A stretch of 25,027 nucleotides of DNA from a virus. The number at the start of each line of letters is the position of its first letter. The first letter of the stretch is position 1. Positions 5,214-23,151 of the stretch are shown piece by piece. The DNA is taken from positions 1-25,027 of IMG/VR virus record IMGVR_UViG_3300033146_000847; one strand, written 5' to 3'. The position numbers were made by a program, and so were the translations under genes. A model generated the notes under the pieces. The model did no database searches and was not told the DNA's origin. It saw only the letters and a list, made by a program, of their open reading frames with translations.

Positions 5214-5236
5214 AATATAATAGTTTTAATTTATTA

Positions 5237-6253: not shown

Positions 6254-6279
6254 TTTATTTATGTTATTAGGTTTATAAA

Positions 6280-6309
6280 ATAAACTAGGTACGTTAATAC
6301 CTAGTTTAT
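6280..6309 (-). terminator. Hairpin after major capsid gene
   Basis: Perfect 12-bp stem, ATAAACTAGGTA / TACCTAGTTTAT, with a 6-nt loop. On the minus strand it is followed by TTTATAAACC, a short T-containing tail. It lies between the capsid stop (6337) and the next start (6253). It probably terminates most capsid transcripts, allowing the capsid protein to be made in excess. Confidence 0.7.
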
Positions 6310-6336
6310 AAATTTATATTATTTTATTAAATTATC

Positions 6337-7836
6337 TTACAATTCACATTGTAAAAGGAAACTATGTTTAGCATTTTTAATATTTATACTTCTACTTTGT
6401 TTAACTTGATAAGAACTTTCATCTTTATCAGTACTAAAACTATTTTGTGCAACAGCTCCCCATGAAGCAGGTATTGGAGCTAATCCTTTAACTACTCCTG
6501 CAATATTTGATTGTCCTTTCATTTGAACCATCTCAACATTACGTTCTCCATCATATACAGAGTAATCTAAAAATACTCCTGTATGAGAAGATAATGGATA
6601 GCCTGTTCTAGGATGTAGTTTATTATTAGCAGTATCTAATTCTCCAAGTTTTCCTGTATCAAATAAAGCATCATGTTTATAAGTTACTACGTGACCTGCT
6701 GGAGTTTTATATTGAGTAAATGTATTACCATATGATAAGTGACCGTCTTTACCGCTTACAAATTTATCTCCTACTGCTGTCATAAAACCTTGACCATAAC
6801 CTGCTGCTTCACTCATAATAGCTTCATGTAAATCTTCACCAAAACCTTGACCTCCATGTATTACTATTTCCATTGTACCTTTATCTGTATTACCCCAGAA
6901 TATATCTCCTACTGTAGCTTTTAATTTAGATAATGGTAAAGTATCTCCATAAGTATCAAACATACCTACATCTTTAATTGTTTGACGAACACCTGCACCA
7001 ATAGGAATTGGTTTATTTGTAACTTGGTCTTTAAGGTCTATTCTACCATCAATATGTTTATTATATTCACTAATATACATATCATGGTTATTCATATCTC
7101 TCATCCAAACTTCAAATTGACGTTGTTCTTCATTAATCCATAGACTAGTTGCTTCACCATTTTTAGTATCACTTCCACTAAACTGAATAGGAACTACTTT
7201 ATTAGCTAGATTACCTTGAATTATCTTAGTATATCTTTTAAACGAAGTTTGATTGGTCATCTTACCTGGTGCCATAACATTACTTCTATTACCTACAGAA
7301 CCTGATTCTGCAACATTTGGAGCAGTCATTATCCATTTAACTCCAGCAGTTAAATTACCTAAATCACAACTTTTAGTTGGGTCAGTTGTTTTAAGCTCTA
7401 ATGTATAAACATATCCACTATATGCACCTGTATCTCTAAATTCAGGTTCTCCGTGAACATATGCTTGAGTTAATCCATCAGGTGCTAAAAGACCATATTG
7501 AGGAATTATCCAATTAGTACTAAATACAACTTCAAATAAACTGTTTGCTAGACCGGGTGTAGCATTATTTGTAGAATTGAAATAAACTACTTCTCCTGTA
7601 TGTGGCATCATACCCATTACAGACCACCAATAATCAACAGCATTTACATCACGTACTGCACCTTGTCCTTCAGTCATTGCTAAAAAACTAAATCGACTTG
7701 CAAACTTTTCTTCTGCCCAAAGCTTTGTAAGTTTTTTACTAAGTTGGTCTGGTTGAGTAAGCATCAAATTAGTTAAAGCATTTTCGTCAGTATAGCCTCT
7801 ACTATCATATCTATCTGAACTTAATTCTCTAATCAT
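6337..7836 (-). CDS. Major capsid protein (crAss-like, HK97-fold expected)
   Basis: 499 aa, ATG 7836 to TAA 6337. The length (about 500 aa), Gly/Asn/Thr-rich composition and lack of enzymatic motifs fit the major capsid protein of crAss-like phages. It lies right after the acidic scaffold-like gene and downstream of TerL and portal. The segment EGQGAVRDVNAVDYWWSVMG near residue 60 resembles the N-arm/E-loop region of these capsid proteins. A later segment IHGGQGFGEDLHEA lies mid-protein. It has a dedicated downstream hairpin terminator. The HK97 fold is expected from family knowledge and not directly visible. The only real alternative in this position is another abundant head protein. Confidence 0.82.
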   Translation of the reverse strand: MIRELSSDRYDSRGYTDENALTNLMLTQPDQLSKKLTKLWAEEKFASRFSFLAMTEGQGAVRDVNAVDYWWSVMGMMPHTGEVVYFNSTNNATPGLANSLFEVVFSTNWIIPQYGLLAPDGLTQAYVHGEPEFRDTGAYSGYVYTLELKTTDPTKSCDLGNLTAGVKWIMTAPNVAESGSVGNRSNVMAPGKMTNQTSFKRYTKIIQGNLANKVVPIQFSGSDTKNGEATSLWINEEQRQFEVWMRDMNNHDMYISEYNKHIDGRIDLKDQVTNKPIPIGAGVRQTIKDVGMFDTYGDTLPLSKLKATVGDIFWGNTDKGTMEIVIHGGQGFGEDLHEAIMSEAAGYGQGFMTAVGDKFVSGKDGHLSYGNTFTQYKTPAGHVVTYKHDALFDTGKLGELDTANNKLHPRTGYPLSSHTGVFLDYSVYDGERNVEMVQMKGQSNIAGVVKGLAPIPASWGAVAQNSFSTDKDESSYQVKQSRSINIKNAKHSFLLQCEL

Positions 7837-9313: not shown

Positions 9314-11683
9314 TTATTTACGATTAGCTAATTTAGTCTTTAAAACATCTTTTGCATAGTTTGTTTGATTAGTATGTCTTACGTCATTACTAATAATTTG
9401 TTGCTTATGCTTATCTGTTTCAGCTTTTATATTAGCTATATTTTCTTTACTATTATCTGTAACTTCTTGTCCACTAATTTTTATATTAGCTATTGCAATA
9501 TCTGTATCAGCCTTTATTTTAGCTACCTCTAGTGGAATATTAATTTTTTGTTGTTCTAATTCTTTAGCTTGGGTTAATGCTTTGTCTTGTTGTTCTTGTT
9601 GTGCTTGTTGTTCTTGTTGTGCTTTTTTATCTTCTATTGCTCTCCATTCTTTAATTATCTTTTTAAGCTTTGATGGATTATCAAATTCAATAGCTGCTAA
9701 ACCTAGTTCAAAAGCTCCATTTTGAGCAGCACTAAAAGCCATTTCTTTATAGGCATCTATTTTATCTTGCATACTTGCTTGATTAACCATAAATACACCA
9801 TAATCACTTTCTATATGTTCTCTAGGATTAACATTTAGATATGCAACTCGTCCCTCATCATTTAAATAAGAACCTATAGTAATTTCTTTATCATCTCTTA
9901 ACCAAGCTAGTTTACTAAAGTTTAATAAAGACATATATGACTTTAATCTACCTTTATTAAATATTTCAGTTATAGGGGCAGTACCAACACTTGCTCTATA
10001 AATAGCTTGTTCAGTAGTTCCTTTACCATCACTAGCGTATGTATCTCCGTATCGTTGACGATTCATTCCTATATTATCCCAAGCTTCTGCTTTTATATCC
10101 TGTATTATTTTACCTAAACCTATTATATATTCAGAATCACTAGCATCTACTGCTTTAACTCCTTGTATAGCTACTTGAAAGTTTTCTGCTGTTTCATCTA
10201 CATAAAGTTTCTTATCAGCTTTAATATAATATATTGCTTCTTCTTGTGTAATTTCATCATCATTTACTAATAATCCTTTAGGTATTACTAATATTTTACC
10301 TATATTATTAGCAATAGCTTGTTCTCTATAATAATGAACTATATTATAAATAGCTTGATAAGGTGCTAATATTTTAGGTATACTATGGTTATTAAAATTA
10401 GCAAACAAATTACGTTTACCGCCATATGGATTTTTTATTATAGAAGTATTATTCATTTCATTTTGTTGAACAGGTATAGGAGTGGCTTCTGTATATACTC
10501 CAAGAGTATCATCACCAAATCTATAACCACCTCTAAATTCATTAATCCAATCAACCTCTAATGAAATATCTCCATTCATTATATCTAATTTATATTCTTC
10601 ATCTACTTCTTTTTCCATTATTTCGCCTAATGGATTTTGATATTTAAGAATATATATTTTTTTATATGTAGTATATACATAATGAATTACATCTATAAGT
10701 CCTGTATTAACATTTATTCCAATACTATCACTTTCTCCATATTTTTCTGCAAAATACTCATATACATTACCTACATAATCAGAAAATAAAGCATCTTTAA
10801 TATTTATTGGACTACCTGTATTTACATATCGTTCTATAATTTCTTCTAAATACTTAATATCTTTTAATGTAAGAATATCTCTAAATTGACTTACTACACT
10901 ATGAATAGACATTTTATACTTTCGCATACCCATATCTGTATCTTCATTCCATTCTTCTCCATTACTAACTGAATAATATTCTAACGGACTTATTACTTCA
11001 AAGTGTAAATCATCAAATCGTATATCTTTATAGTCATACCATTCTCCACTTATTAACCAATCTAGGTAAGCTCCCCAATAAGCATAATCTAATTCAAACC
11101 TATTATGAATATAGTCTATAATCTCTTGACCTTTTAATGCACGATTGTCATTCCAAGTTTCATTAAATTTAGATAAAGCTTCATGCAAAGAAGGTATCTT
11201 TTCTCCCTCTACTTCAGGAAATGGAGCTTCTTCTGAATATTTGTTTATAGAACTTTTTAATAAATTATCTAAAATAGGTTTTACAAAATCATATTCTTCT
11301 TTCTTTCTATTACTCTCACTATCACTATTATTAATACCTACTATCGGTTTAAATGAAGCTTTCATATATTCACCTAGATAACGTAGTACAACAGGTGATA
11401 TAATATCTATATTTCTAAGTTTTGCAGGAAATTCTTTAACCTTTATATTTTCACTATGGAAAGGATTAGTTACATAAGTATAATCATTAATATCAAAATC
11501 TCCATTTGCCGCAGCATATAACTTACGTAATTTATATTTATCTGAATTATTAGCTAAACAAGTATTTATTACATGCTTTGCAGTAGGTACATAAAAATCA
11601 GGTTTACTTTTAGCTTTACTAGAAACTCTTTGATTTGGTAGTTTACTACTATATAAATCGTTACTTATTTTAGTTGTTGGCAT
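9314..11683 (-). CDS. Portal protein
   Basis: About 789 aa from ATG 11683 (MPTTKISNDLYSSKLPNQRV). An upstream in-frame TTG at 11725 would add 14 residues, but ATG is preferred. It follows TerL and precedes the scaffold and capsid genes, the standard head order. Length near 800 aa matches crAss-like portals. The body has the mixed helical pattern of portals, with a WRAIEDKKAQ helix leading to a Gln-rich coiled coil (AQQEQQAQQEQQDKALTQAK). It then continues as a long charged coiled coil to the C-terminus, as expected for an extended portal barrel or crown reaching into the head. A region with NIGMNRQRYGDTYASDGKGT lies around residue 550. The portal ring forms the DNA entry channel at one capsid vertex. 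Confidence 0.8.
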   Translation of the reverse strand: MPTTKISNDLYSSKLPNQRVSSKAKSKPDFYVPTAKHVINTCLANNSDKYKLRKLYAAANGDFDINDYTYVTNPFHSENIKVKEFPAKLRNIDIISPVVLRYLGEYMKASFKPIVGINNSDSESNRKKEEYDFVKPILDNLLKSSINKYSEEAPFPEVEGEKIPSLHEALSKFNETWNDNRALKGQEIIDYIHNRFELDYAYWGAYLDWLISGEWYDYKDIRFDDLHFEVISPLEYYSVSNGEEWNEDTDMGMRKYKMSIHSVVSQFRDILTLKDIKYLEEIIERYVNTGSPINIKDALFSDYVGNVYEYFAEKYGESDSIGINVNTGLIDVIHYVYTTYKKIYILKYQNPLGEIMEKEVDEEYKLDIMNGDISLEVDWINEFRGGYRFGDDTLGVYTEATPIPVQQNEMNNTSIIKNPYGGKRNLFANFNNHSIPKILAPYQAIYNIVHYYREQAIANNIGKILVIPKGLLVNDDEITQEEAIYYIKADKKLYVDETAENFQVAIQGVKAVDASDSEYIIGLGKIIQDIKAEAWDNIGMNRQRYGDTYASDGKGTTEQAIYRASVGTAPITEIFNKGRLKSYMSLLNFSKLAWLRDDKEITIGSYLNDEGRVAYLNVNPREHIESDYGVFMVNQASMQDKIDAYKEMAFSAAQNGAFELGLAAIEFDNPSKLKKIIKEWRAIEDKKAQQEQQAQQEQQDKALTQAKELEQQKINIPLEVAKIKADTDIAIANIKISGQEVTDNSKENIANIKAETDKHKQQIISNDVRHTNQTNYAKDVLKTKLANRK

Positions 11684-11833
11684 ATTACTATGTATTATTT
11701 GATTAATTTTTGTAAATATATACAATAATAATATAGTTTACAATAAAAGAATAGATTATTATTACATTAATCTATGTTTATATGTTCTACTACTTAAATC
11801 CCCCGTAAAAGAAGAAATTATTAAAAGCGTAGA
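11684..11833 (-). promoter_or_regulatory. TerL-portal spacer with conserved repeat and hairpin
   Basis: 150 nt between the TerL stop (11834) and the portal start. It holds an 8-bp hairpin (ATAGATTA 11751-11758 with TAATCTAT 11768-11775). It also holds one copy of the CCCCCGTAA repeat that is otherwise found only in the 18.8-20.0 kb region. A separate late promoter or an RNA processing site for the portal-capsid segment is inferred. Confidence 0.45.
11798..11829 (+). repeat. CCCCCGTAA repeat, copy 1
   Basis: Reads ATCCCCCGTAAAAGAAG, then AAATTATTAAAAGCG. It shares the CCCCCGTAA core, the purine run and the AAAGCG end with copy 2 (18836-18866). It lies just past the TerL stop codon, in the spacer before the portal gene. 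Confidence 0.65.
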
Positions 11834-14185
11834 TTATTGATACCAACTTCTATTAAATATACTCTTTCCCTTAGTCTTACTTCTTTGTTCAACTTTATGT
11901 TTAGTTATTAACATTTCTTGTACATCATATACCATAATAATTAATGTAGAAACTCTATCAAAGTTATCTTCTGGATTCCATGTAAGAAGTTCCTCAATAG
12001 TATGTATATCATATATAAAATGAAAGTTATATAAAGTAGCTCCATCATCTGATACTCCTCTAGGTGTATAAAGCCATTCTTTAAGATAGTCTAAACCATC
12101 TGCTTTTTTAGTACCACCGCCTATTATTATACCATATGATGAATCTAATGACTCTTTTATTTTATAATCAAATACGTGTATAGGTGTTTTAATTAATCTA
12201 TCCCTACGTTTCCAACGTTTAAACGTACTTACTATATTTCCTCTATCTACTTCTGGTAATACTTGTGCATTATAATAATCACATATATCTAGTACTAACC
12301 TATTAGTAGTTTCAGTACTACCTGTTCTACCAACATATTGAGCAACTATTATATCACCCCCTCCTGGGATTATATTAGTATTAACCATTTTAACTGTTAT
12401 ACTATCTAATGAATTATCTGTTCTAATAGTTTTTATATCTTTATCTTTAGCAACAGGGTCATAATATACTCTATATAATCCTTTAGGAATATTGCCATCA
12501 CTATCTCTAAAAGGGGGATACCATTCTCGTACACAACCATATACGTCTTCCCCTTTCTTAAATGATAAGCCCATATAATTATGAACCGTTAAACCTTTTG
12601 TTCTACGAATTGCGTTAGATTGAAATACAGCTTTACCGTCTTTAACACTAATCCAACCATCTCTATAAAACTGTAAAGATAAGTCTGACTCAAGTCTTGC
12701 TTTATGGTCTATCATTTCAGGACTAGTAAACATATTATCCTTACTTATAGAAAATGATTCAGTAGGCATATTAGAAAACTGTCCACAGTATGTTAAGTAA
12801 TCTCGTTGACTAGTTTCTGGATTAGCTAATTTATCAGCTCTTTCTTGTAAGTATATATTAGTAGCGGCTACATAGTTTGGATTACCATATGTATCCATTC
12901 CCTCATTTCCTTCTTTATCAAATCCTTCAAGATTTTGAATATATGGTTTAAAAAATCCTACTCCTTTACGCATTGCATTATAATCCCATACATTAGCAAA
13001 CTTCATAGCATCATATTTAGCAGGGTCTAAATACCATACTTTAAATTCTTTCCAATCACCCTCTGTACTACCTCCTGTACCAAAACCTATAATCATTCCT
13101 GTTTTAAATGCTCCTGCAGTAGTTGCAGGAATAGTTACATTCATAAATGCAGAAAGGTTTGGAGCATTACTTAATTCTTCTATTTTAATTTTAGTTGCAT
13201 CTTTACCTATTGCAGCATCTGGATTATTTGGTCCAAAACCTACACTAATAATATTACTACCCCATCCTGTTGCAGTACCTGAACTATCTTTATATCCAAG
13301 CTTTAAGTCTTCTAAATCTTTTTTAAGTAAACCAGCAGCTGTGCCATCAGGTTTAACTCCACATCTATTAAATGGTGTATTAGTTTCATAAAAATCTAAT
13401 TGAGTTTTTGCCATAGGTGCTATAGAACGACCTTTAGTAAGATAGTCTTTAGCATATGCACAAAATATTGATACATTATTTTTAATAAGGTTTGCATCAT
13501 TTGCACTATCAATAGCTTCTTGAAATGACCAACCAGCACGTCTAGATTTTAATACTACTTGGTTTAATCCATTATCTTGTGCAAACTTTTTTGCTTTAGT
13601 CCAATAATACTGACTAGCAAAGAATGTAGGAAGTCCTAAACTTTTACGTGCTGTAATGCTTCCTTTTTTTATACTACTTTTATCAGTACGTAATATTCTA
13701 CCATAGTTAAGGAAATTATAATGTTCTCCTGTTATATGTAATGGTTTAAGTAATTTATAACGTTTTTCTCTAGGTAATGAATTATACTCATTAACATCAG
13801 ATTTAAGCAATTTACAAGGTAGTGTTAAACCATGTGTTCTTTTATCTGTTTCATCACGTAACCATTGCCTATATTCAATACTATCTTTTTCTTCATCTAA
13901 GTATTTACCTGTTTCTTCAAATACTTCACCTGTTGCTTTAAACTTATGAGTATTTACAAATACAAAGTTATAATTAAATAAAAAATGACCTTCTTCATTA
14001 ACTAGAAAATCATCCTCCCTATCAATGTAAGGATTATTAGTTTTAGGATTATTTATATCACTAGCTTTACTATATACTGTTAAATCTGAATTATAATATT
14101 TTACAATAGGAAGTAGCTCCTCCTCTTTAATTTTAGGAAAAGCTACATCTATAGAAATATCTAAACAATCTCTTACATCAATCAT
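11834..14185 (-). CDS. terL: Terminase large subunit
   Basis: 783 aa, ATG 14185 to TAA 11834. The ATPase motor shows a Walker A of the terminase type, SRRAGWS (about residues 214-220). A Walker B follows, KIKIEEL (about 332-338), and a coupling motif GFGTGGS (about 367-373). The C-terminal nuclease domain shows YRVYYDP with Asp near 576, LPEVDRGN with Glu near 645, and a late acidic site (DRVSTLIIMVYDV), fitting an RNase H-like metal-dependent nuclease. About 200 residues precede Walker A, much more than in T4-like terminases, as in crAss-like TerL proteins. The enzyme docks on the portal, pumps genome DNA into the prohead and cuts it. I do not recognise a small terminase gene. Confidence 0.92.
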   Translation of the reverse strand: MIDVRDCLDISIDVAFPKIKEEELLPIVKYYNSDLTVYSKASDINNPKTNNPYIDREDDFLVNEEGHFLFNYNFVFVNTHKFKATGEVFEETGKYLDEEKDSIEYRQWLRDETDKRTHGLTLPCKLLKSDVNEYNSLPREKRYKLLKPLHITGEHYNFLNYGRILRTDKSSIKKGSITARKSLGLPTFFASQYYWTKAKKFAQDNGLNQVVLKSRRAGWSFQEAIDSANDANLIKNNVSIFCAYAKDYLTKGRSIAPMAKTQLDFYETNTPFNRCGVKPDGTAAGLLKKDLEDLKLGYKDSSGTATGWGSNIISVGFGPNNPDAAIGKDATKIKIEELSNAPNLSAFMNVTIPATTAGAFKTGMIIGFGTGGSTEGDWKEFKVWYLDPAKYDAMKFANVWDYNAMRKGVGFFKPYIQNLEGFDKEGNEGMDTYGNPNYVAATNIYLQERADKLANPETSQRDYLTYCGQFSNMPTESFSISKDNMFTSPEMIDHKARLESDLSLQFYRDGWISVKDGKAVFQSNAIRRTKGLTVHNYMGLSFKKGEDVYGCVREWYPPFRDSDGNIPKGLYRVYYDPVAKDKDIKTIRTDNSLDSITVKMVNTNIIPGGGDIIVAQYVGRTGSTETTNRLVLDICDYYNAQVLPEVDRGNIVSTFKRWKRRDRLIKTPIHVFDYKIKESLDSSYGIIIGGGTKKADGLDYLKEWLYTPRGVSDDGATLYNFHFIYDIHTIEELLTWNPEDNFDRVSTLIIMVYDVQEMLITKHKVEQRSKTKGKSIFNRSWYQ

Positions 14186-14187
14186 AA

Positions 14188-14406
14188 TTATTTTTTATTA
14201 AATCCTATTTCTTTTGGTTTCGCGGTGCTATTATAAATATAATTATCACTATTTATGTCTAATGCATACTCATTATCATAAACTTTTATTCCAAGAAACC
14301 ATATTTGCCTACGTATAGTTTTAGTAGGTAAAGCATAAAAAGGTTCTCCTTTTTCATAGTTTAAATCTTTATATAATTCACCATGTGTAACTCGTATTTT
14401 AATCAT
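14188..14406 (-). CDS. Hypothetical protein, 72 aa, between holin and TerL
   Basis: ATG 14406, TAA 14188. It overlaps the holin-like gene by 8 nt and ends two bases before the TerL start, so it is translationally linked to both. The sequence is soluble and mixed (MIKIRVTHGELYKDLNYEKG), with a KTIRRQIWFLGIKVYD segment and no motif I know. Its place immediately before TerL raises the idea of a packaging accessory protein, but it is too small for a typical TerS and shows no DNA-binding motif. Confidence 0.7.
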   Translation of the reverse strand: MIKIRVTHGELYKDLNYEKGEPFYALPTKTIRRQIWFLGIKVYDNEYALDINSDNYIYNSTAKPKEIGFNKK

Positions 14407-14632
14407 GTTTATCTTTTTTAATAATATTAGTATTATCTGTTTTCCAAATATCAGTTATATTACCTATACCTAATAAGGTAGTACCTGTTGCAAATACCAT
14501 TGTAGTAAATGCTACATCTAACTCTTTGTCAGTAATTAAACCAATAAATCCATAAAGTACAGCACTAAGAAGTAATATAACTCCTAGTGCTCTACGATGT
14601 GCTCCTTGTTTACCTTTATCTAAATTATTCAT
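14399..14632 (-). CDS. Holin-like membrane protein
   Basis: 77 aa with two hydrophobic segments (about residues 16-34, GVILLLSAVLYGFIGLI, and 39-58, DVAFTTMVFATGTTLLGIG). They are joined by a short charged turn, with a Lys/Arg-rich N-terminus and a charged C-terminal tail. This is the form of a class II holin. It directly follows the endolysin and spanin-like genes, completing a lysis cassette. It would sit in the inner membrane and open it at lysis time. ATG 14632 lies 3 nt from the previous stop. Confidence 0.7.
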   Translation of the reverse strand: MNNLDKGKQGAHRRALGVILLLSAVLYGFIGLITDKELDVAFTTMVFATGTTLLGIGNITDIWKTDNTNIIKKDKHD

Positions 14633-14635
14633 CTT

Positions 14636-15292
14636 TTAATTTTTATATTTATTATTTATTATATACTTTAAATTAGCTTTAAAATCTTTATCATTACTAG
14701 TCATATTTACTTTCCATTTAACATCTCTCCAATGAAGTATATTACGAGGTGTCCATTTACCATCTCTATATTTATTTATAGCAATAGTTAAATTAGGAGT
14801 ATACGTATATTTATAGTGAGCCGTATCAGAACTATGTAATACAAATCGTTCAAGTTTAAGTATTCCATTATTATACTTATCATATTCTTTATATCTTATT
14901 ACAGTATCAGTAGTAACTATTATAGTATCTTTATATATTTTAGTATTAAAGTATTTCTCAATATTTACATTAGCATCTATTAAGTTACTTATATTTCTAA
15001 ATTTAATATTTATACTATCTAATGTAGATAAAATATCTTTAAGGCTAGTATCATTATACATTTCATTAGTAGTTATTGTAATACCATCAACTTCTGATAT
15101 AACTTTACCCTCTTTAGTTACATAATGTTTAGTACCTTTAGATAATGTTTCATAATTAGTCTCATATCTATTAGCTCTTTTATTAGCTTTATAGAAAAAT
15201 ATACTTAATACGATACTTACTAAAGTTGCTATTAAGGCTATTATATTTATTGCTCTACGTATCATATTTGCTTTATATATTAAATGTATCAT
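14636..15292 (-). CDS. Spanin-like membrane-anchored periplasmic protein
   Basis: 218 aa. An N-terminal membrane segment (IINIIALIATLVSIVLSIFFY-like, about residues 13-34) is followed by a long polar domain. That domain has helix-forming stretches (LKDILSTLDSINIKFRNIS) and beta strands (DTIIVTTDTVIRYKEYDKY). The start ATG 15292 shares one base with the endolysin stop; a second ATG at 15265 (MIRRAINII) is also possible. Type II membrane topology, the place between endolysin and holin, and resemblance to spanin-like proteins of Bacteroidota phages suggest a role in outer membrane disruption. No lipobox partner was found, so it could be a unimolecular or partnerless type. Confidence 0.6.
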   Translation of the reverse strand: MIHLIYKANMIRRAINIIALIATLVSIVLSIFFYKANKRANRYETNYETLSKGTKHYVTKEGKVISEVDGITITTNEMYNDTSLKDILSTLDSINIKFRNISNLIDANVNIEKYFNTKIYKDTIIVTTDTVIRYKEYDKYNNGILKLERFVLHSSDTAHYKYTYTPNLTIAINKYRDGKWTPRNILHWRDVKWKVNMTSNDKDFKANLKYIINNKYKN

Positions 15293-16005
15293 TATATTAC
15301 TTTATCTAAATCTATTTCAGTTATTAAGCTAAATGAAAAACTATTACCATATAGAATACTCGCTTCTCTATATAATGGAAGAAATCTATTTCTATATTCA
15401 TAAGGGCTTTGATGAACTTGACAACCAGCACTATAAAGACCTATATATTCAAGTATTTTCCATTTACTAGCTCTATGGTTATTAATACCAAATACACCAC
15501 GTACTAATCTACCTATTCTATTCCATGCTGAATCAAATATTAATTTATCATCACCTACTCTCTTTACATTAAAGTTAGTTAAAATATCAGTAGGACTGTA
15601 TAAACTAAGTATTGATATATCACCATCTTTATCATTATCTCGTAGTCCATAAAAAGGAGTTGCTTGAACTAATGCTTCATACCCTTTGTGCTTACCTAAT
15701 TTAAATCCTCCTTTTACATGTTGAGGAAGCAGTATAAAAGTACCTTTATTATTAATTGGCTTAATCCTATATGTAAGTCCCGGGTCAGTAGTTATAGCAA
15801 AGTATTCTACATACATTACACCTTTATATTTCCAAAACACTACTTCTATATCATTAAACATATTAGAAGATAGATTACTACTTCTGATTAATACAGTATT
15901 AAGGTTATAGTTAAACTTATCATTTAAGAATATAGGATAACCTTTATCTTTTAATACTTTTAGTATATTCTCAATTACTGCTTTATCTTTTAATTCTTTA
16001 TTCAT
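15292..16005 (-). CDS. Putative endolysin, YkuD/L,D-transpeptidase-like
   Basis: 237 aa, ATG 16005 to TAA 15292. The C-terminal half holds FGINNHRAS (His near residue 178), then YSAGCQVH (Cys near residue 196). This H...S-x-G-C arrangement is the active-site pattern of YkuD-like cysteine peptidoglycan enzymes, and is shared by a widespread group of phage lysins with HR and SAGCQ. No signal peptide is visible, so release depends on the holin-like neighbour. It is translationally coupled to the spanin-like gene by a one-base stop/start overlap. The role would be cleavage or remodelling of peptidoglycan at lysis. Exact bond specificity is not deducible. Confidence 0.72.
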   Translation of the reverse strand: MNKELKDKAVIENILKVLKDKGYPIFLNDKFNYNLNTVLIRSSNLSSNMFNDIEVVFWKYKGVMYVEYFAITTDPGLTYRIKPINNKGTFILLPQHVKGGFKLGKHKGYEALVQATPFYGLRDNDKDGDISILSLYSPTDILTNFNVKRVGDDKLIFDSAWNRIGRLVRGVFGINNHRASKWKILEYIGLYSAGCQVHQSPYEYRNRFLPLYREASILYGNSFSFSLITEIDLDKVI

Positions 16006-16007
16006 TG

Positions 16008-16955
16008 TTAAAATATTAATGTTTGTTGTTGCGATTGATTATAAATTCTATTATGATGATTAAACATTTTCAATACATCTTTTTTTAAATACTTTATATT
16101 GTGAAATTCTACTACTTCTTTTTCTTTACCTGTTTGTTTATCTTTAATATCTCGTATATGAGCTAGAAATAAACCATCACATGTAAGCCCAAATTGTTCA
16201 GTTAAATAAGCATATCCACTAAGTTGTAAACTATACTCTTGTCCATTACAATGTTCAATATTATCTAAAGGTGGTTTAAGTTTCTTATTAGGAGTATATA
16301 CATATTCTTCTGTTTCTTCTCCGAATTGGTCACGTTTAAAATATCCTGCATTAAACTCCATTTTACGCTTATTAGTTTTCCAATCAAGTATTCTAAAAAG
16401 ATTTCCTTTAACCATTAGAACATCTATTAGTCCACTTACTACTAAATCAGGATTATAAACTCCTACTTCAGCATATATCTTCCAACCATTACTAATATGA
16501 TATTCAAGAGCATTATAAATACTTGGATAACGTATATCTATTTTAGTGTTTCTAAAATGTTTTAAATCAACTAATCCATAATCATGGTCATCTAATATAT
16601 CATCTAATGTATAAATATAATCATTTATATATATTCCACCTGCTCTACGATTATAACCATTGGCTGTTTTAATACTTGTTTCAAAATAATTATGTTTTTT
16701 ATTACCTTTATCACATGCAGTAGTATTAATTTCAGCCCATAGTTCTTTTATTTTCTTAGGGGTCATTCTATAGTATTTATGACCTACTGCGTTCCAATAT
16801 TTTCTACTAGTTGCTAATGCTACTTTATCTGTTTCAAAAGGATGTTCGTATTTACCTAATACAGTAGTCATAGAAGTATATGTAACTCCTCTATTATCAG
16901 TATATTTATGTTCTAATTCATTAAAGAATAATTTACATCTTTCGAAACTTCTCAT
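16008..16955 (-). CDS. PD-(D/E)XK nuclease, RecB/Cas4-like
   Basis: 315 aa, ATG 16955. The motif order fits the RecB/Cas4-type PD-(D/E)XK fold: KGNKKHNYFE (His88, Glu92), AEVGV (Glu163), GLIDVL (Asp178), DWKTNK (Asp191, Lys193) and QLSGYAYL (Gln244, Tyr248). All catalytic positions are present, so the enzyme should be active as a metal-dependent DNA nuclease. I see no four-cysteine iron-sulfur cluster. It lies in the late operon between a 201-aa unknown gene and the endolysin, away from any replication genes visible here. Late roles could include genome end processing, branched DNA clearance before packaging or host DNA degradation. Confidence 0.82.
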   Translation of the reverse strand: MRSFERCKLFFNELEHKYTDNRGVTYTSMTTVLGKYEHPFETDKVALATSRKYWNAVGHKYYRMTPKKIKELWAEINTTACDKGNKKHNYFETSIKTANGYNRRAGGIYINDYIYTLDDILDDHDYGLVDLKHFRNTKIDIRYPSIYNALEYHISNGWKIYAEVGVYNPDLVVSGLIDVLMVKGNLFRILDWKTNKRKMEFNAGYFKRDQFGEETEEYVYTPNKKLKPPLDNIEHCNGQEYSLQLSGYAYLTEQFGLTCDGLFLAHIRDIKDKQTGKEKEVVEFHNIKYLKKDVLKMFNHHNRIYNQSQQQTLIF

Positions 16956-16988
16956 TATATCTATATTAATTATTATTTATATATTTGT

Positions 16989-17594
16989 TTAATAATCACC
17001 TATCATAGAAGCTGTAATATTAATACCACTTCTACCTTTATTTTTAGTTTTCTGTTCAGCAAATGCTTGTTGTTTAACCTTTTCTAATTTATTTATTTTA
17101 TCTGGTATATCAACCCCTAAACTTAATAGTTCTTTAATACTACTTGTAAGGGCTTTAACTAAATCTCCTGTTTTCTCAGCATCACTTTCTTTAATTTGGT
17201 CTAGTTTTTCAGCTATCATATCATCTATTAATTCTATTGCTCTATTAGATGTACCGAATGCTTTAAGCAAACTAATATAATTCATAGTCTGTATACCATT
17301 TCGTTCATTAATATATGTACTAATACAACTATTAACTATTTCATCACTTACCCAAGTAATTGGTAATTTAGCAAATACTTTAGCACCTGCATAAAGATGT
17401 TTACCTTTTTCTCCACGTTTAAGTCCCGGACTCCTATAATCACATACATAAAAAATATATGTAAGTTCTTTTAAGGCTAATGTCTTACCACTAGTTTTAT
17501 CACGTTTCCATAAAGTATTAAAATCATTATATAAAGCAAATGTTTCATCTATTACTTTAATACCATTATCTGTTAATTCAAAATAATCTAACAT
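16989..17594 (-). CDS. Hypothetical protein, 201 aa, late operon
   Basis: ATG 17594 to TAA 16989. The N-terminal half is mixed (IKVIDETFALYNDFNTLWKR). It has a conserved-looking block around residues 50-70 (YVCDYRSPGLKRGEKGKHLY). The C-terminal half is helical and charged (KLEKVKQQAFAEQKTKNKGR) and ends MIGDY. No motif identifies it. It follows the 145-aa gene by 4 nt and precedes the nuclease gene by 33 nt. A small terminase or head-completion role is conceivable from position and helical content but unsupported. Confidence 0.75.
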   Translation of the reverse strand: MLDYFELTDNGIKVIDETFALYNDFNTLWKRDKTSGKTLALKELTYIFYVCDYRSPGLKRGEKGKHLYAGAKVFAKLPITWVSDEIVNSCISTYINERNGIQTMNYISLLKAFGTSNRAIELIDDMIAEKLDQIKESDAEKTGDLVKALTSSIKELLSLGVDIPDKINKLEKVKQQAFAEQKTKNKGRSGINITASMIGDY

Positions 17595-17598
17595 ACCA

Positions 17599-18036
17599 TT
17601 AAAACTTTAAATCTAATTTATTTATATTAACTGATTTATTTTTATATGTTCCTCTATTTGCTAATTTAGCTTTTTTAAGCATTTTAGTATGCTCTTTAAC
17701 TTTCTTTGTATGTTCATAGAACTCTACAAAATGTTCATCTAAATAAGCACTTGCTTTAATAGTTGCATCATATACATTAAGTTCTTCTCGTTCCATATAT
17801 AAATCTCTTAATCTATGAAGCTCTATTAAATAAGGACTAGGTCTAAATGAACCAAGAAACATACAATTTACTCTTTTAAGGTCTACTAGAGATTGTTTAA
17901 TAGCTATTGCTTGACCGTTAGCTACATCAAATATTACATCATTTGATATAGGTTTTTTAAAACTTTTTTCAAATGCTTCTTTAATCATTTCAAATACCTC
18001 TTTCTTGGTATCGTCCATCTCCTCTAGTTTGCCCAT
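17599..18036 (-). CDS. Hypothetical protein, 145 aa, late operon
   Basis: I chose ATG 18036 (MGKLEEMDDTKKEV), one base after the upstream TAG stop at 18038-18040. A longer frame exists from a GTG at 18063 but overlaps the 214-aa gene. The protein is soluble, helical and Lys/Glu-rich, with a central FLGSFRPSPYLIELHRLRDL block that looks conserved. The tail is basic (KMLKKAKLANRGTYKNKS). Stop-start coupling with both neighbours indicates one translated unit of three unknown proteins that open the late operon. Function unknown. Confidence 0.75.
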   Translation of the reverse strand: MGKLEEMDDTKKEVFEMIKEAFEKSFKKPISNDVIFDVANGQAIAIKQSLVDLKRVNCMFLGSFRPSPYLIELHRLRDLYMEREELNVYDATIKASAYLDEHFVEFYEHTKKVKEHTKMLKKAKLANRGTYKNKSVNINKLDLKF

Positions 18037-18037
18037 A

Positions 18038-18682
18038 CTAATATGTTGTATCTTGTGCCACACTACCCATTATCATAGAACTTGCCATAAGGAAGTAATC
18101 TACCACTTCGACAACTTTATTATAATTGGTAAAATCTCTTTTTTTATTTTCTGTTGCAATATCATTGATACTTTTTATAATATTGGTTGCTGCACTTTTT
18201 CCTACATCTTTTAAATCTCCCATTTTAGCAATATTTGCTATATTTCCAGAACTGCTATATTTTACAGCTAGTGCATTAATACCTTTTAGATTATTTGGTA
18301 CAGGTATTCTCATAGGTGGTATTTGAGGATTTATAATAACTTCTGTACCTACTACGTATTCATCTTTTGAATGAGCTGAAGCAACATAGTATTTAGCATT
18401 TTCAGCACCACTATAATCACCACGTAGTACAGCAGCTATTGTCATATTTAATACACCACACACTAAGTAATATCCCTGTTTAGCATATACATGCGTAACT
18501 GAACGAGAGTTATTTAAATCTCTTACTATATCTTTATCTCTAGTTGATATTTGATGTAATAGCTTAATTCTTGCAGAACTAAAATAAGCACCTAGTGTAA
18601 CAGCTACTTCTTCATCTACCATTATATCTTTATCATATAGAGGTGCGTGTGGGTTTTTACTATATATTATACTACTTTCCAT
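18038..18682 (-). CDS. Hypothetical protein, 214 aa, first gene of late operon
   Basis: ATG 18682, ending in TAG at 18038, the only TAG terminator seen in the window. It is the first gene after a good Bacteroidota-type promoter (18727-18757). The protein has a helical N-terminus and a central block with PQIPPMRIPVPNNLKGINAL. Small-residue-rich segments follow, with a C-terminal helix (VVEVVDYFLMASSMIMGSV). No domain is recognised. As the lead gene before nuclease, lysis and packaging genes, it could be a virion component or late regulator. Confidence 0.78.
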   Translation of the reverse strand: MESSIIYSKNPHAPLYDKDIMVDEEVAVTLGAYFSSARIKLLHQISTRDKDIVRDLNNSRSVTHVYAKQGYYLVCGVLNMTIAAVLRGDYSGAENAKYYVASAHSKDEYVVGTEVIINPQIPPMRIPVPNNLKGINALAVKYSSSGNIANIAKMGDLKDVGKSAATNIIKSINDIATENKKRDFTNYNKVVEVVDYFLMASSMIMGSVAQDTTY

Positions 18683-18726
18683 ATTTATTAATTAATTTAA
18701 TTTGTACTAATTTATTATTATGTACA

Positions 18727-18757
18727 CAAATATATAAAATTAAATCATACTAACAAA
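18727..18757 (-). promoter_or_regulatory. Bacteroidota-type promoter for the late block
   Basis: On the minus strand TTTG (18757-18754) is followed after exactly 19 nt by TATATTTG (18734-18727). This is a full match to the Bacteroidota primary sigma consensus TTTG-N19-TAnnTTTG. A start site near 18720 would leave a leader of roughly 40 nt before the ATG at 18682. It implies that host RNA polymerase can read the leftward block. Confidence 0.75.
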
Positions 18758-18835
18758 TTTATATAACTTTATTATTATACTAATTTAATATTGATTATAA
18801 TAATTGGTATTGAATTTTATCTAAGATTGAATGTA

Positions 18836-18866
18836 ATCCCCCGTAAGCAAAGAAATCATGAAAGCG
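18836..18866 (+). repeat. CCCCCGTAA repeat, copy 2
   Basis: ATCCCCCGTAAGCAAAGAAA, then TCATGAAAGCG. It is the closest relative of copy 1, including the AAAGCG end. It sits about 80 nt upstream of the late promoter on the minus strand, as an upstream regulatory site could. Confidence 0.65.
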
Positions 18867-19457
18867 AAGTAGCTATACTACTATACTATATACTCTATTC
18901 ATATTAAAAACTAACAAACTCCTTACAATATATTGTCTAACTTTAATTAAACTCCATATAATATATTGTAATCAAATACTTGTTATTGGACATCTACTAT
19001 ATAAACTTTGAGTAAACTATAATGTAGACTAAGATATAAACTATTTCTAGTAATATACAAATTAAATTATGGAAAACTAAGTATTGCAAACACATTACTC
19101 TATGAAATAATCTATACCTAATCTACACTTGTTCTTTAATATAATGTATAGTAAAAATTGTGTATTATCTAGTAATGAATAATATATACTCTTTAATAAT
19201 TTTGTACTTAATTTAGTATTCTGCTACCCTTAGTTTTGGTAAAATCAAACTTAATACTATCTACTATAACACCTGCTATATCACTATTAAGTTTAACTTT
19301 TACTAAATTACATCTAAAATTATTATTAGAACATATAATCAATTTTGTAATAAAATTAGTGTTAAAATTGGTAATCCAATCTATATTTCACCTATTCAAA
19401 ACTTGATTTTCTATAATATACATAATTCCATAATAACTACCAAATATATTTATAATT

Positions 19458-19512
19458 ATTATTAGACTATTATTAGACTATATATATCATTATATATATC
19501 ACTATATATACT
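19458..19512. repeat. AT-rich short tandem repeats
   Basis: ATTATTAGACT occurs twice in tandem (19458-19468 and 19469-19479). It is followed by three approximate units of TATATATATCAT with a 12-bp period. The run is pure A/T apart from single G or C bases, so it should melt easily; a DNA-unwinding element is a possible role. Confidence 0.6.
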
Positions 19513-19712
19513 AATATATGGATAAATATATGAACTAAGATATGATGTAATAGGTAATTCCCGATATGTTCCAAATAGTACTCAATCATATATCACTTTT
19601 GAATTACTAGGTTTATAAATATATGAATAAATTAGTACCCAATTATATAAGCTTTTTAAACTAAATAGTGGTTAAATATGTATAGTACTAAGTACGTATC
19701 TTCTCATAGATG

Positions 19713-19736
19713 TTATTTTCTTTCTTACGGGGGAAT
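19713..19736 (-). repeat. CCCCCGTAAG repeat, copy 3 (inverted)
   Basis: On the minus strand it reads TTCCCCCGTAAGAAAGAAAA. It is the only copy in the opposite orientation, and it shares the GTAAGAAAGAAAA stretch exactly with copy 4. With copies 2 and 4 it gives the region an inverted arrangement. Confidence 0.7.
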
Positions 19737-19929
19737 ATATTCCAACACTAATACTACTACATATATCTATTACTAGATTACTATTAAATACATATTCTAG
19801 TTTATATATCTATATACTAGTTATAATAATTCTTACTAAATTACCTATAATAATAAGTCAGTTTTTTAAAATATAATAGGTGCTTTATTACAAGTTATAT
19901 ATAGTTACCTATGATGTAGATTAAACTAA

Positions 19930-19960
19930 ATCTCCCCGTAAGAAAGAAAATGAAGTCATG
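19930..19960 (+). repeat. CCCCGTAAG repeat, copy 4
   Basis: ATCTCCCCGTAAGAAAGAAA, then ATGAAGTCATG. One base differs in the C-run (TCCCC). Copies 3 and 4 form an inverted pair about 200 bp apart. Confidence 0.7.
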
Positions 19961-20099
19961 GGATTGTACGTAATTTATTAAGTAGTTAAGAATAACTAGG
20001 TATAACTAGAGTTTTAAATATTACAATAACTAGTTAATTATAAATTATAAATAATAGCGGTACGAGGGTTACATTATAACTAAATGTGGCTAGTTGGCT

Positions 20100-20415
20100 A
20101 ATAAGGAGAGAATGAAATGATTGACTGAATAATCTAAATATAATGAATGATAAAGTATAGGTAGTATTAAAGAATAAATAGTAAAGAGTTGGATGAGGTA
20201 ATATAGTAAAAATAATAAGAAGGATAAGAAGGATAAGAAGAATAAGAAGATAGGTGGATTAGGTTAAATAAATTAAAGAATAAATGAGATAGAATAAGGT
20301 AGAGGATGTAAGATAGAATAGTATATAAAGTAGGATATAAAATAGAATATGTGAGATAGAACATAATAGGACTTAAAAGGACTTAAAAGGTATGAAGTGT
20401 GTGACTGCGTACAGG
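20100..20415 (+). other. Purine-rich strand-biased block
   Basis: About 300 nt in which the plus strand is almost only A, G and T with very few C. It includes four tandem 9-bp units (20214-20249) and a duplicated 10-bp unit ACTTAAAAGG (20371-20390). Open frames here on the minus strand encode only Ser/Tyr/Leu low-complexity runs and are not credible genes. Confidence 0.6.
20214..20249 (+). repeat. 9-bp purine tandem repeat x4
   Basis: Units of [A/G]ATAAGAAG at 20214, 20223, 20232 and 20241, identical except for the first base. This is an all-purine-plus-T array in the middle of the purine-rich block. Confidence 0.75.
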
Positions 20416-20518
20416 ACTTGGTGAGACCCCTCCCCTTATATATTTTCGTTGAGCTACCCCCCATCAAATTTAAAGACATTGAAGTCGAATGAAATAATTA
20501 TCTAGTAAAATACATAGT

Positions 20519-20549
20519 TTTGTATTCATTACTGTATTAGTTATAGTTC
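20519..20549 (+). promoter_or_regulatory. Possible weak plus-strand promoter
   Basis: TTTG at 20519-20522 followed after 19 nt by TATAGTTC (20542-20549), which has the TA start but two mismatches to TAnnTTTG. It is 170 nt upstream of the first rightward gene. Plausible but weak. Confidence 0.3.
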
Positions 20550-20655
20550 GGTTTTTCATTGCAGCTGTATTACTTACTACTCTATTTCTAGTATTATTGT
20601 ATTTTTTATGATTATTGATACAGCGTCTTAAATATTAAAATATACGATGTTTTAA

Positions 20656-20685
20656 ATATTATAATCCAATGCTTTATTTAACTGC
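20656..20685 (+). repeat. 30-nt upstream block, copy A
   Basis: ATATTATAATCCAATGCTTT then ATTTAACTGC. It matches 26 of 30 positions with copy B at 21003-21032. It lies 34 nt before the ATG of the 72-aa gene. Conservation across two leaders suggests a promoter or regulator binding site. Confidence 0.55.
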
Positions 20686-20719
20686 GACAGAACAGTATTA
20701 ATTAATTAAACTATAAACC

Positions 20720-20938
20720 ATGAAAGAACTAGGATTTATTGTAGTAGTATTATGTACTATACTACTAACTGCTTATACTATTCATTTAGATAGGCAGGTA
20801 AAGCGTCTCGAACAAGATGCGGTAAGTACTGAAGAAATAGATGAGCACTATACCAAAGGTATGAACAGTATAATGTTTGTACTACTAACTATCAGTGGAG
20901 CAGCATCTATAGTTTTATCATTTATTCTAATGTTCTAA
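20720..20938 (+). CDS. Small protein with two membrane segments
   Basis: 72 aa, ATG 20720 to TAA 20936-20938. An N-terminal hydrophobic helix (residues 4-21, LGFIVVVLCTILLTAYTI) is followed by a charged, coiled-coil-like loop (LDRQVKRLEQDAVSTEEIDE). A second hydrophobic helix (about 50-71, MFVLLTISGAASIVLSFILM) follows. It is the first rightward gene after the divergent region, so it is likely early. Early membrane proteins of phages often act in superinfection exclusion or host membrane takeover, but nothing here specifies the role. The leader is AT-rich without a Shine-Dalgarno sequence (AAACTATAAACC). Confidence 0.75.
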   Translation: MKELGFIVVVLCTILLTAYTIHLDRQVKRLEQDAVSTEEIDEHYTKGMNSIMFVLLTISGAASIVLSFILMF

Positions 20939-20958
20939 GGAGCATTAGTTTAAATGAT

Positions 20959-21016
20959 TATAATACATGGATAATATAATACGTGGATATTATAATACGT
21001 GGATATTATAATACAG
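20959..21016 (+). repeat. 16-bp tandem repeats (iteron-like)
   Basis: Units of TATAATACGTGGATAT at 20959-20974 (with A for G and A for the final T), 20975-20990 and 20991-21006, plus a partial TATAATACAG at 21007-21016. Each unit contains a TATAAT hexamer. The array runs into copy B of the 30-nt block. The regular 16-bp period suggests repeated protein binding, as in iterons or operator arrays. Confidence 0.75.
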
Positions 21017-21032
21017 TGCTTAATTTAACTAC
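21003..21032 (+). repeat. 30-nt upstream block, copy B
   Basis: ATATTATAATACAGTGCTTA then ATTTAACTAC. It is a 26/30 match to copy A and overlaps the end of the 16-bp array. It lies about 120 nt before the ATG of the 145-aa gene. Confidence 0.55.
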
Positions 21033-21154
21033 TACTATATAGCTTATTAAAAATTATAATTTATCGTACCAAGTTGATAGCTGTAGTACCGTAAATGTAA
21101 TACATACAATAGGCTGTTTTTTATATTTTTATTTATTAATTAACAATTTAAGTC

Positions 21155-21592
21155 ATGGATTTAAAAAAAATGCTTAATTTACCTTTAGCAAAGGTTGAAA
21201 AAAGACAAGGTGAAGTAGAAGAAACATCAGTAACTGTAAAAGGGTTTACATATGATGAAAAGGATGATACATTAACGGCTCATTTCAAAGAGCAAAATTG
21301 TGTACCTTACATCAAAGTAACTACTGACGACAAAGGTAAGGAAATTAAAGAACTAGCAATGGGCTCTAGTATTCGTATTAACGGCAGAATAAGCGAATTT
21401 ACGCAAGTTTTACCTAGTGCTACTAAGCAAGAAATTGCAGCTTTAACTAATGTTCCCGGAACTCTTGTTTTAACTGTATTCGAAGGGGAGATTAAAAAGT
21501 ATTTTATACCTGAAATTAGCGATGCTCACATTAATCGTGTAACAGCTGTTCGTAAATTATCTAGTATAAATAATACTCCTGAGATATTCTAA
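21155..21592 (+). CDS. Hypothetical soluble protein, 145 aa
   Basis: ATG 21155 to TAA 21590-21592. It has a Lys/Glu-rich N-terminus (MDLKKMLNLPLAKVEKRQGE). Beta-strand patterns follow (TSVTVKGFTYDEKDDTLTAHF, GSSIRINGRISEF, GTLVLTVFEGEIKKYFIP) with alternating charged and hydrophobic residues. The strand-rich centre with GSSIRINGRI might be an OB-like or other small beta-barrel domain, but I see no firm motif. It uses GC-richer codons than its neighbours (for example ATTCGTATTAACGGC), suggesting high expression or a different origin. It is followed at once by a strong hairpin terminator, so it is probably an abundant early protein. Confidence 0.8.
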   Translation: MDLKKMLNLPLAKVEKRQGEVEETSVTVKGFTYDEKDDTLTAHFKEQNCVPYIKVTTDDKGKEIKELAMGSSIRINGRISEFTQVLPSATKQEIAALTNVPGTLVLTVFEGEIKKYFIPEISDAHINRVTAVRKLSSINNTPEIF

Positions 21593-21730: not shown

Positions 21731-21827
21731 CTGATTGAGAAATAATATTAAACTAGTATAGTTTATTACATAAACAAAACTTAACCATTTATCAATCAGT
21801 ATATCTTATTACATAAACAAAACTTAA
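21731..21827 (+). promoter_or_regulatory. Inverted repeat plus 22-nt direct repeat in leader
   Basis: CTGATTGAGAAAT (21731-21743) pairs with ATTTATCAATCAG (21787-21799), with one mismatch in 13. A perfect 22-nt direct repeat (starting TTATTACATAAACAAAAC) occurs at 21763-21784, inside the loop, and at 21806-21827, after the stem. The second copy ends 24 nt before the ATG at 21852. It could be a duplicated operator or a folding switch in the leader RNA. Confidence 0.6.
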
Positions 21828-21851: not shown

Positions 21852-22088
21852 ATGGAAGTTATTAAACATATACCACTAGACAGTCCACAAGCTGACATAC
21901 TATGTGAAGCAATTGAAGCAACAAACTTAGACGCTGTACATTATTTAGATAAAGATAAAAATAGAGTAGTAGCAATATCATTACCTATAAGAAAAGTTAA
22001 TTCAGAATTAAATGGATTAAGTCCAGATAATCCAGCATATGAAGATGTTAATACAATGATTGGTATAGCATGTGGTAAAAGAAAATAA
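21852..22088 (+). CDS. Hypothetical protein, 78 aa
   Basis: ATG 21852 to TAA 22086-22088. A small acidic soluble protein with an N-terminal beta/helix part (MEVIKHIPLDSPQADILCEA). A strand follows (VHYLDKDKNRVVAISLPIRK) and a C-terminal helix ends IACGKRK. No recognised motif. It has a complex leader with a duplicated 22-nt element, so it is likely regulated separately from its neighbours. Function unknown. Confidence 0.75.
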   Translation: MEVIKHIPLDSPQADILCEAIEATNLDAVHYLDKDKNRVVAISLPIRKVNSELNGLSPDNPAYEDVNTMIGIACGKRK

Positions 22089-22537: not shown

Positions 22538-22843
22538 ATGGAAGATTTACCTAATTATACAATAAAAGAGAGACTAGCTATCTATGAAAAAGCTTTAGAT
22601 ATTTATAACCCTAAAGATAAATATACGGGTATACCTATCGGCTTATGTGCAGCATTAGACTATGCTATACGAGATATACATCAGTGCTTATTAGACTTTG
22701 ATGAAATACTTGATATACTACCTGAATTTCAAGAAATTAAACCATTAAATACACTAAAGGCATATTGGTGGGATATGCGTGATAGAACAGTTAGAATAAA
22801 AGCTCTTAAAACAATGATAAATAATACTAAAAATAAATTATAA
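22538..22843 (+). CDS. Small protein, first of a tandem paralogue pair
   Basis: 101 aa, ATG 22538 to TAA 22841-22843. It is helical and soluble. Shared blocks with the next gene are TIKERL-IYEKALDIY, GLC-A-D-AI, LPEF--IKP, YWW and NTKNKL. The GLC and YWW positions look like a conserved core. It is coupled to its paralogue through a TAATG overlap, so the two are made together and may form a heterodimer. The family is unknown to me. Its long, pyrimidine-rich leader is unusual. Confidence 0.8.
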   Translation: MEDLPNYTIKERLAIYEKALDIYNPKDKYTGIPIGLCAALDYAIRDIHQCLLDFDEILDILPEFQEIKPLNTLKAYWWDMRDRTVRIKALKTMINNTKNKL

Positions 22844-23151
22844 TGAACCAGCTACAATTTACAATAAAAGAAAGGTTAATTATCTATGAGAAAGCCTTAG
22901 ATATTTATAAAAACACTTTTAAGGAAAGTGTTTCACTTGGGCTATGCTATGCTATGGATACTGCTATAATAAAACTTTATAATAAAAATTTAGAATATAA
23001 CGAGCTATATAAATTACTACCTGAATTTTATGATATTAAACCAATTAACGTAAGTAGTTATTGGTGGGCTATAGGTGATAGTAAATCACGTATTATGGCA
23101 TTAAATACAATAATTTCTAATACTAAAAATAAACTAGCTATTGAAAAATAA
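22843..23151 (+). CDS. Small protein, second of a tandem paralogue pair
   Basis: 102 aa, ATG 22843 sharing a base with the preceding TAA. The same helical layout as its neighbour (FTIKERLIIYEKALDIYKN, GLCYAMDTAI, LLPEFYDIKPIN, SSYWWAIGD, ISNTKNKL), with a different middle (residues 22-30) and a short C-terminal extension (AIEK). Clear tandem duplication followed by divergence. Functions such as inhibitor variants against different host targets are possible for early phage paralogues, but not shown. Confidence 0.8.
   Translation: MNQLQFTIKERLIIYEKALDIYKNTFKESVSLGLCYAMDTAIIKLYNKNLEYNELYKLLPEFYDIKPINVSSYWWAIGDSKSRIMALNTIISNTKNKLAIEK

Follow-up and report, generated by a model that had tools for sequence, protein, structure and literature searches.

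What a short word is doing when it recurs, in both orientations, around the gene-block divide of a viral genome is the question raised by IMG/VR record IMGVR_UViG_3300033146_000847, the whole of which (25,027 bases) was analysed and is referred to here as the window. The carrier is a crAss-like phage (Crassvirales, gut viruses of very wide occurrence), of which the window is a fragment: large terminase, portal and major head protein were confirmed by PHROG matches, and their order, terminase, portal, one gene, major head protein, is the same as in p-crAssphage. The repeated element is a conserved directional signal, as seen in its identity, conservation, orientation, spacing, dialects and conservation at third codon positions. 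The form in the window is one dialect of this signal, which consists of a pyrimidine tract followed by TA[C/T][G/A]GGGG and usually A, and which is found in a large part of the crAss-like phages.

Four copies of the element in the window

Allowing at most one mismatch, CCCCCGTAAG had exactly four matches in the window, at positions 11800 (+, CCCCCGTAAA), 18838 (+), 19733-19724 (-) and 19933 (+, TCCCCGTAAG), when dinucleotide shuffles contained on average 0.12 matches and none of 100 shuffles reached four. The first-pass annotation had listed four copies, three in one orientation and one in the other, with one before the portal gene and others around the gene-block divide; number, strands and gene setting were all confirmed, far above chance, and the sites were right, except that the starts given for the plus-strand copies were 2-3 bases off. 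The divergent region, 18683-20719, contains three of the copies. The long motif that it had described as shared is common to the copies in its core (T/C)CCCCGTAA only. The longer CCCCCGTAAGAAAGAAA fitted no more than three copies at up to three mismatches, and the A/G-rich tail differs among copies (AAAGAAGAAAT, AGCAAAGAAAT, AGAAAGAAAAT).

Read on the gene strand, the element comprises a pyrimidine tract and TACGGGGGA, which in the window takes the form of the tract and then TTACGGGG(G)A. A position-matrix scan was bimodal, the four sites scoring 28-32 and the next best site in the window 8. Located by the A of ACGGGG, the copies stand at -11806, -18844, +19727 and -19939, the last two as a converging pair 212 bp apart (Table 1).

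Conservation and orientation in close relatives

Relatives were collected by terminase: contigs L003 and L004 from one sample (ca. 61% identity) and L019 from another (63% over the best segment). In the terminase tree they group with the window in a separate clade, which branches outside the Intestiviridae crown (a quick tree with Shimodaira-Hasegawa-like approximate likelihood ratio, SH-aLRT, support only, and with some forks open). A second scan, by head protein, gave no further motif-bearing members of the clade.

The conservation in relatives and the orientation towards genes that the first-pass annotation had expected of a genuine signal were both found. Matrix scores of the element were 25-34 in the three relatives, with nothing else above 13, and in each of them a copy (L003 +2117, L004 +5418, L019 +5097) precedes the terminase ATG by 8-17 nt. 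L004 has, moreover, the same converging pair (+398 and -622, 224 bp apart), placed ahead of the first late gene, and L019 an additional copy at -322. Over the ca. 64 kb of the clade all 10 copies are intergenic, none being genic or antisense, and all eight copies with visible downstream genes point towards those genes; the remaining two, in L004 and L019, are early-directed, and their downstream genes fall beyond the contig end.

The terminase frame of L019 (5112-7458) is split into two open reading frames (5112-6326 and 6523-7458); since the contig contains ambiguous bases, either a flaw of the assembly or an insertion may be the cause.

Lineage-specific dialects

An unsupervised search for over-represented 9-mers, with a fifth-order Markov model as background, ranked the element first in all five complete Intestiviridae genomes tried, in lineage-specific dialects including CCTCTACGGGGGA, CCTTTATGGGGGA and CCTTTACAGGGGA. 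The top words (observed vs expected counts) were CCTTTATGG in cr107_1 (14 vs 1), CCTCTACGG in cr3_1 (18 vs 0.8), CCTCTACGG and CCTCCACGG in p-crAssphage (16 and 15 vs 0.7), CCTTTACGG in crAss002 (9 vs 0.4), CCTCTACAG and CCTTTACAG in R. jaberico (7 vs 0.4 and 13 vs 1.7), and CTTTTACGG in the window's clade (6 vs 0.29). Later checks of the word itself gave CTTCTACGG in cr271_1 (13 vs 1.6) and CTTTTACGG in half of cr8_1 (12 vs 0.5). As a single dialect runs throughout each genome and phages with Bacteroides hosts differ in theirs, we infer that the reader of the element is most likely encoded by the phage.

In the Steigviridae genomes crAss001 and phi14:2 the element was absent. The crAss001 genome (L040/L046, NC_049977) contains 27 copies of CTTCTGGAG, with 5.6 expected, and the 17 copies on the minus strand are regularly spaced (coefficient of variation, CV, 0.45 vs 0.93, p=4e-4); this word is possibly the Steigviridae counterpart. 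Crevaviridae phage cr127_1 (L052/L053, NC_055886) has 10 copies of a ca. 29-base repeat, CGGAACACCTCYCGCCCTTGTGGCCAWTA, built around CCCTTGTGGCC, several of them in gaps between genes and including two converging pairs, 173 and 192 bp apart.

Layout and positional conservation in Intestiviridae

The layout in INTESTIVIRIDAE was analysed from the same five complete genomes, with dialect patterns set after viewing each genome and p-values uncorrected; crAss002 and cr107_1 represent one genus. The genome-specific patterns gave 24-32 copies per genome, about half on each strand. With one general pattern for all five genomes, 37 of 144 copies were intergenic, when 9.9 were expected, and those between co-directional genes leaned to the sense strand (18:7).

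Spacing between same-strand copies was more regular than random on 7 of 10 strands, most clearly on the minus strand of p-crAssphage (CV 0.31 vs 0.93; none of 5000 draws as low), and regular spacing was also found on the plus strand of cr271_1 (p=0.003). Same-strand neighbours were always at least 1247 bp apart (35 gaps), when opposite-strand pairs came as close as 27 bp, and strand alternation exceeded chance (76 vs 56.8, p=5e-5, pooled over four genomes).

Four genera were placed on common coordinates by means of 19 anchor genes, and copies within 300 bp were taken as matching. In 10 of 12 comparisons, 30-45% of the copies coincided with a same-strand copy of another genus (null 8-10%, p 0.001-0.008), the exception being cr3_1 and R. 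jaberico (17-19%, p 0.08-0.10); opposite-strand copies were near background. One shared site is located ca. 310-330 bp before the terminase, near the site of the window's relatives, and a second, present in all four genera, is antisense inside the RNA-polymerase-associated/zincin gene. At third codon positions, crAss002 and cr107_1 were 96% identical in the core and 85% in the flanks (p=0.003).

Predicted folding of the G-rich strand

A small stem-loop is possible on the G-rich strand, and in the five Intestiviridae genomes it is ca. 3 to 5 kcal/mol better than in composition shuffles. The opposite strand folds less well, since many of the pairs are G-U. The stem register varies, being CUCCU[YUAC]AGGGG in R. 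jaberico, UUCCUC[UACG]GGGGA in cr3_1 and UCCUC[YAC]GGGGR in p-crAssphage. Swapping the 5' arm among sites weakened the fold in cr3_1 and R. jaberico (p=0.02) and was borderline in p-crAssphage (0.055), with no loss in crAss002 or cr107_1, and the hairpin is thus supported in part of the family only.

Gene setting and other features of the window

By tblastn the window was 31-36% identical to crAss-like genomes, with cr3_1 as the top match, and no direct DNA match to known phages was found. The sign of the GC skew switches within the divergent region.

Table 1. Copies of the element and surrounding genes in the window (element read on the gene strand)
Feature	Position	Strand	Remarks
Copy 1, ATTTCTTCTTTTACGGGGGA	11799..11818	-	matrix score 31.7; between terminase and portal, directed towards portal
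Copy 2, ATTTCTTTGCTTACGGGGGA	18837..18856	-	matrix score 29.5; 156 bp upstream of the first late gene, directed towards that gene
Copy 3, ATTTTCTTTCTTACGGGGGA	19715..19734	+	matrix score 30.4; directed towards the early (+) gene block
Copy 4, ATTTTCTTTCTTACGGGGAGA	19931..19951	-	matrix score 28.1; directed towards the late (-) block
Portal protein gene	9314..11725	-	phrog_6547, E=8.7e-85; downstream of copy 1; likely true start ATG near 11683
Large terminase gene	11834..14185	-	phrog_6681, E=1.8e-94
First late gene	18038..18682	-	no PHROG match; downstream of copies 2 and 4
First gene of the rightward (early) block	20720..20938	+	downstream of copy 3
Divergent region	18683..20719		late (-)/early (+) divide; ca. 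2 kb, gene-poor, AT-rich; copies 2-4 inside

The scan of the window against Rfam gave no match to a known structured RNA at gathering score, and a tRNA scan returned nothing. Sigma-70-like promoter matches were no more numerous than in shuffles, and in the right block TGCTTWATTTAACT, a candidate word for early genes, was not above chance once mismatches were allowed.

Other repeats were observed to the right of the copies. Positions 20100-20465, in AT-rich non-coding surroundings, are purine-rich and contain repeats resembling GGATAAGA, after which comes a C-rich patch (GACCCCTCCCC ... TACCCCCCATC). In the gap that separates the first gene of the rightward block from the second, a 16-base unit occurs three times in tandem (20957-21014, ATTATAATACRTGGAT), and just before the gene at 21852 there are two 93% identical copies of a 30-base repeat, 43 bp apart (21755-21827, AGTATAKYTTATTACATAAACAAAACTTAA), a possible operator or promoter pair. 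Further along the same block, adjacent genes for similar proteins of 101 and 102 residues (22538-23151) represent a tandem duplication.

Candidate functions of the element

The account that we favour, although we hold it tentatively, is that the element marks the point at which a strand-specific copying enzyme encoded by the phage starts, the likeliest candidate being the virion RNA polymerase. Once the DNA is opened, this polymerase would recognise the small stem-loop formed by the G-rich strand and start beside the G run. At the heads of gene blocks in the window's clade (early-directed, late-directed, and before terminase or portal) the sites would act as phage promoter or leader signals. 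Spaced on both strands in Intestiviridae, which points to a reader acting on each strand separately, they would let the polymerase start near any point of a circularly permuted genome, and the starts would serve transcripts, primers or DNA entry. The hairpin promoters of the N4 virion RNA polymerase offer a parallel: a podovirus-like phage, an injected polymerase, and a short, oriented, phage-specific stem-loop with a loop of 3-4 bases, such as the G-rich strand of the element may form. The N4 promoters are, however, few and all located before early genes, whereas the element has dozens of sites on both strands; moreover, the crAss-like polymerases are unrelated to that of N4. A fast-diverging virion RNA polymerase is universal among crAss-like phages (PMC7886860, PMC10136315) and in phi14:2 transcribes the early genes (PMC10136315). 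Distributed starts would suit genomes with permuted ends, such as those predicted for crAss002 (PMC10136315).

Several points weigh against this account. Genic copies in the five Intestiviridae genomes are divided almost equally between sense and antisense (12:10, 12:11, 11:10, 12:12 and 9:8), which is odd for gene promoters, and a plain gene promoter is therefore insufficient. The stem in the window's clade is a weak one, and the arm swap gave no support there (p 0.7-0.9). To our knowledge, no transcript starts are known at the sites of the element. Finally, transcription of late genes is probably the task of the host polymerase (PMC10136315), yet copies precede late genes.

The phage-specific promoter suggested in the first-pass annotation accordingly survives in part: a conserved, oriented signal whose dialect changes in concert fits the phage-specific and directional side of the proposal, but a promoter before genes is too narrow for the numerous and half antisense Intestiviridae copies. 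An origin or packaging-initiation site, also suggested there, fits poorly, as one or a few such sites would be expected and not a regular series on each strand.

A Chi-like recombination or resection signal is rather unlikely. Evenly spaced, oriented sites on each strand would be met within a few kb by an end-resecting helicase/nuclease entering from any break or genome end, and a reader encoded by the phage would evolve together with the dialect. Chi sites (RecBCD/AddAB) and skewed or architecture-imparting words resemble the element in being short, G-rich, oriented, over-represented and tolerated in coding DNA, and the element is G-rich, occurs on both strands in regular series, is tolerated in genes in both senses, and keeps same-strand copies apart. 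Intestiviridae also encode RecT-type recombinases, Gam-like proteins and helicases, and the permuted ends predicted for crAss002 (PMC10136315) agree with this explanation. Unlike Chi, the element has one dialect per phage genus, is conserved in position, strand-symmetric and, in the window's clade, exclusively intergenic; it is also longer, 12-15 bases or more when known Chi sites have 5-8. The even coverage that such a signal requires is missing in the window's clade, and crAss001, which has fixed terminal repeats, carries a spaced word of its own.

Little weight is given to priming sites, at which hairpins in exposed single strands would bring in the primase or replisome of the phage, each strand then being synthesised discontinuously. 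Regular spacing per strand, with a same-strand minimum of 1247 bp, the independence of genic copies from gene direction, and the stem-loop capacity would all be accounted for, but for the primases known from bacteria and phages the recognised word is mostly about three bases long, and placement in the window's clade is sparse, intergenic and gene-directed. The Chi-like and the priming explanations account for the Intestiviridae layout about as well as polymerase start sites do, but not for the window's clade.

We regard as improbable an RNA hairpin acting after transcription, i.e. a terminator, a processing, 3'-end-stabilising or antitermination signal. The G-U pairs that favour folding of the G-rich strand are in line with it, as is location: 14 of the 18 sense intergenic copies in Intestiviridae are nearer to the upstream stop than to the next start, and in the window's clade those that precede terminase or portal likewise sit close to the upstream stop. 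However, half of the genic copies would reside in antisense RNA, at positions conserved between genera, no T run follows the element, a terminator scan of 11500-21300 found no G+C-rich stem with a T run, and the arm swap is unsupportive in the window's clade.

A packaging, nicking or DNA-architecture site (a terminase sub-site, a T5-like nick, or a binding site of a phage IHF-like protein) is distinctly improbable. Such sites would explain regular spacing along the whole genome, and the localized nick sites of T5 are similarly a short directional word repeated along phage DNA; furthermore, a DNA ligase gene is present in the Intestiviridae genomes tested, when none is annotated in crAss001 and phi14:2, which lack the word. 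T5-type nick motifs are one-stranded, whereas the element is equally frequent on both strands, with opposite-strand sites down to 27 bp apart, and the gene-directed placement in the window's clade also speaks against such a site. DNA uptake sequences of Haemophilus and Neisseria share with the element the rank of most frequent word in the genome, lineage dialects, presence on both strands and regular spacing; the element differs in residing in a phage genome with no uptake system, in tens and not hundreds or thousands of copies, and at conserved positions.

A chance repeat or composition effect is practically dismissed by the shuffles, relatives, dialects, spacing, and positional and codon-position conservation, even if single copies do turn up by chance in unrelated contigs. 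Matches to a near-17-mer in three unrelated contigs of viral_contigs were judged to be due to chance; in the same collection, 4 of 20 followed-up contigs with the 15-mer TTYTTTTACGGGGGA had many copies, and the remainder, with 1-3, were judged likewise.

Implications for crAss-like phages

No published description of the element was found in the literature searched, and the crAss-like surveys and reviews PMC7886860 and PMC10136315 make no mention of promoters. More speculatively, crAss-like phages may share ancient stem-loop start sites, oriented, conserved in position and present on both strands, whose dialect would co-evolve with the virion RNA polymerase; these would constitute a system of hairpin promoters, distributed over permuted genomes and used in their entry, transcription and priming, of which other families may have their own versions (CTTCTGGAG in crAss001, CCCTTGTGGCC in cr127_1). 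Sites of transcription and replication start are poorly known in crAss-like phages, and the word provides a concrete handle, with a defined list of sites in the cultured phages crAss002 (host Bacteroides xylanisolvens) and R. jaberico (host B. cellulosilyticus). As it marks the same oriented places across genera, with one dialect per lineage, it might also be of use in identifying and binning crAss-like contigs.

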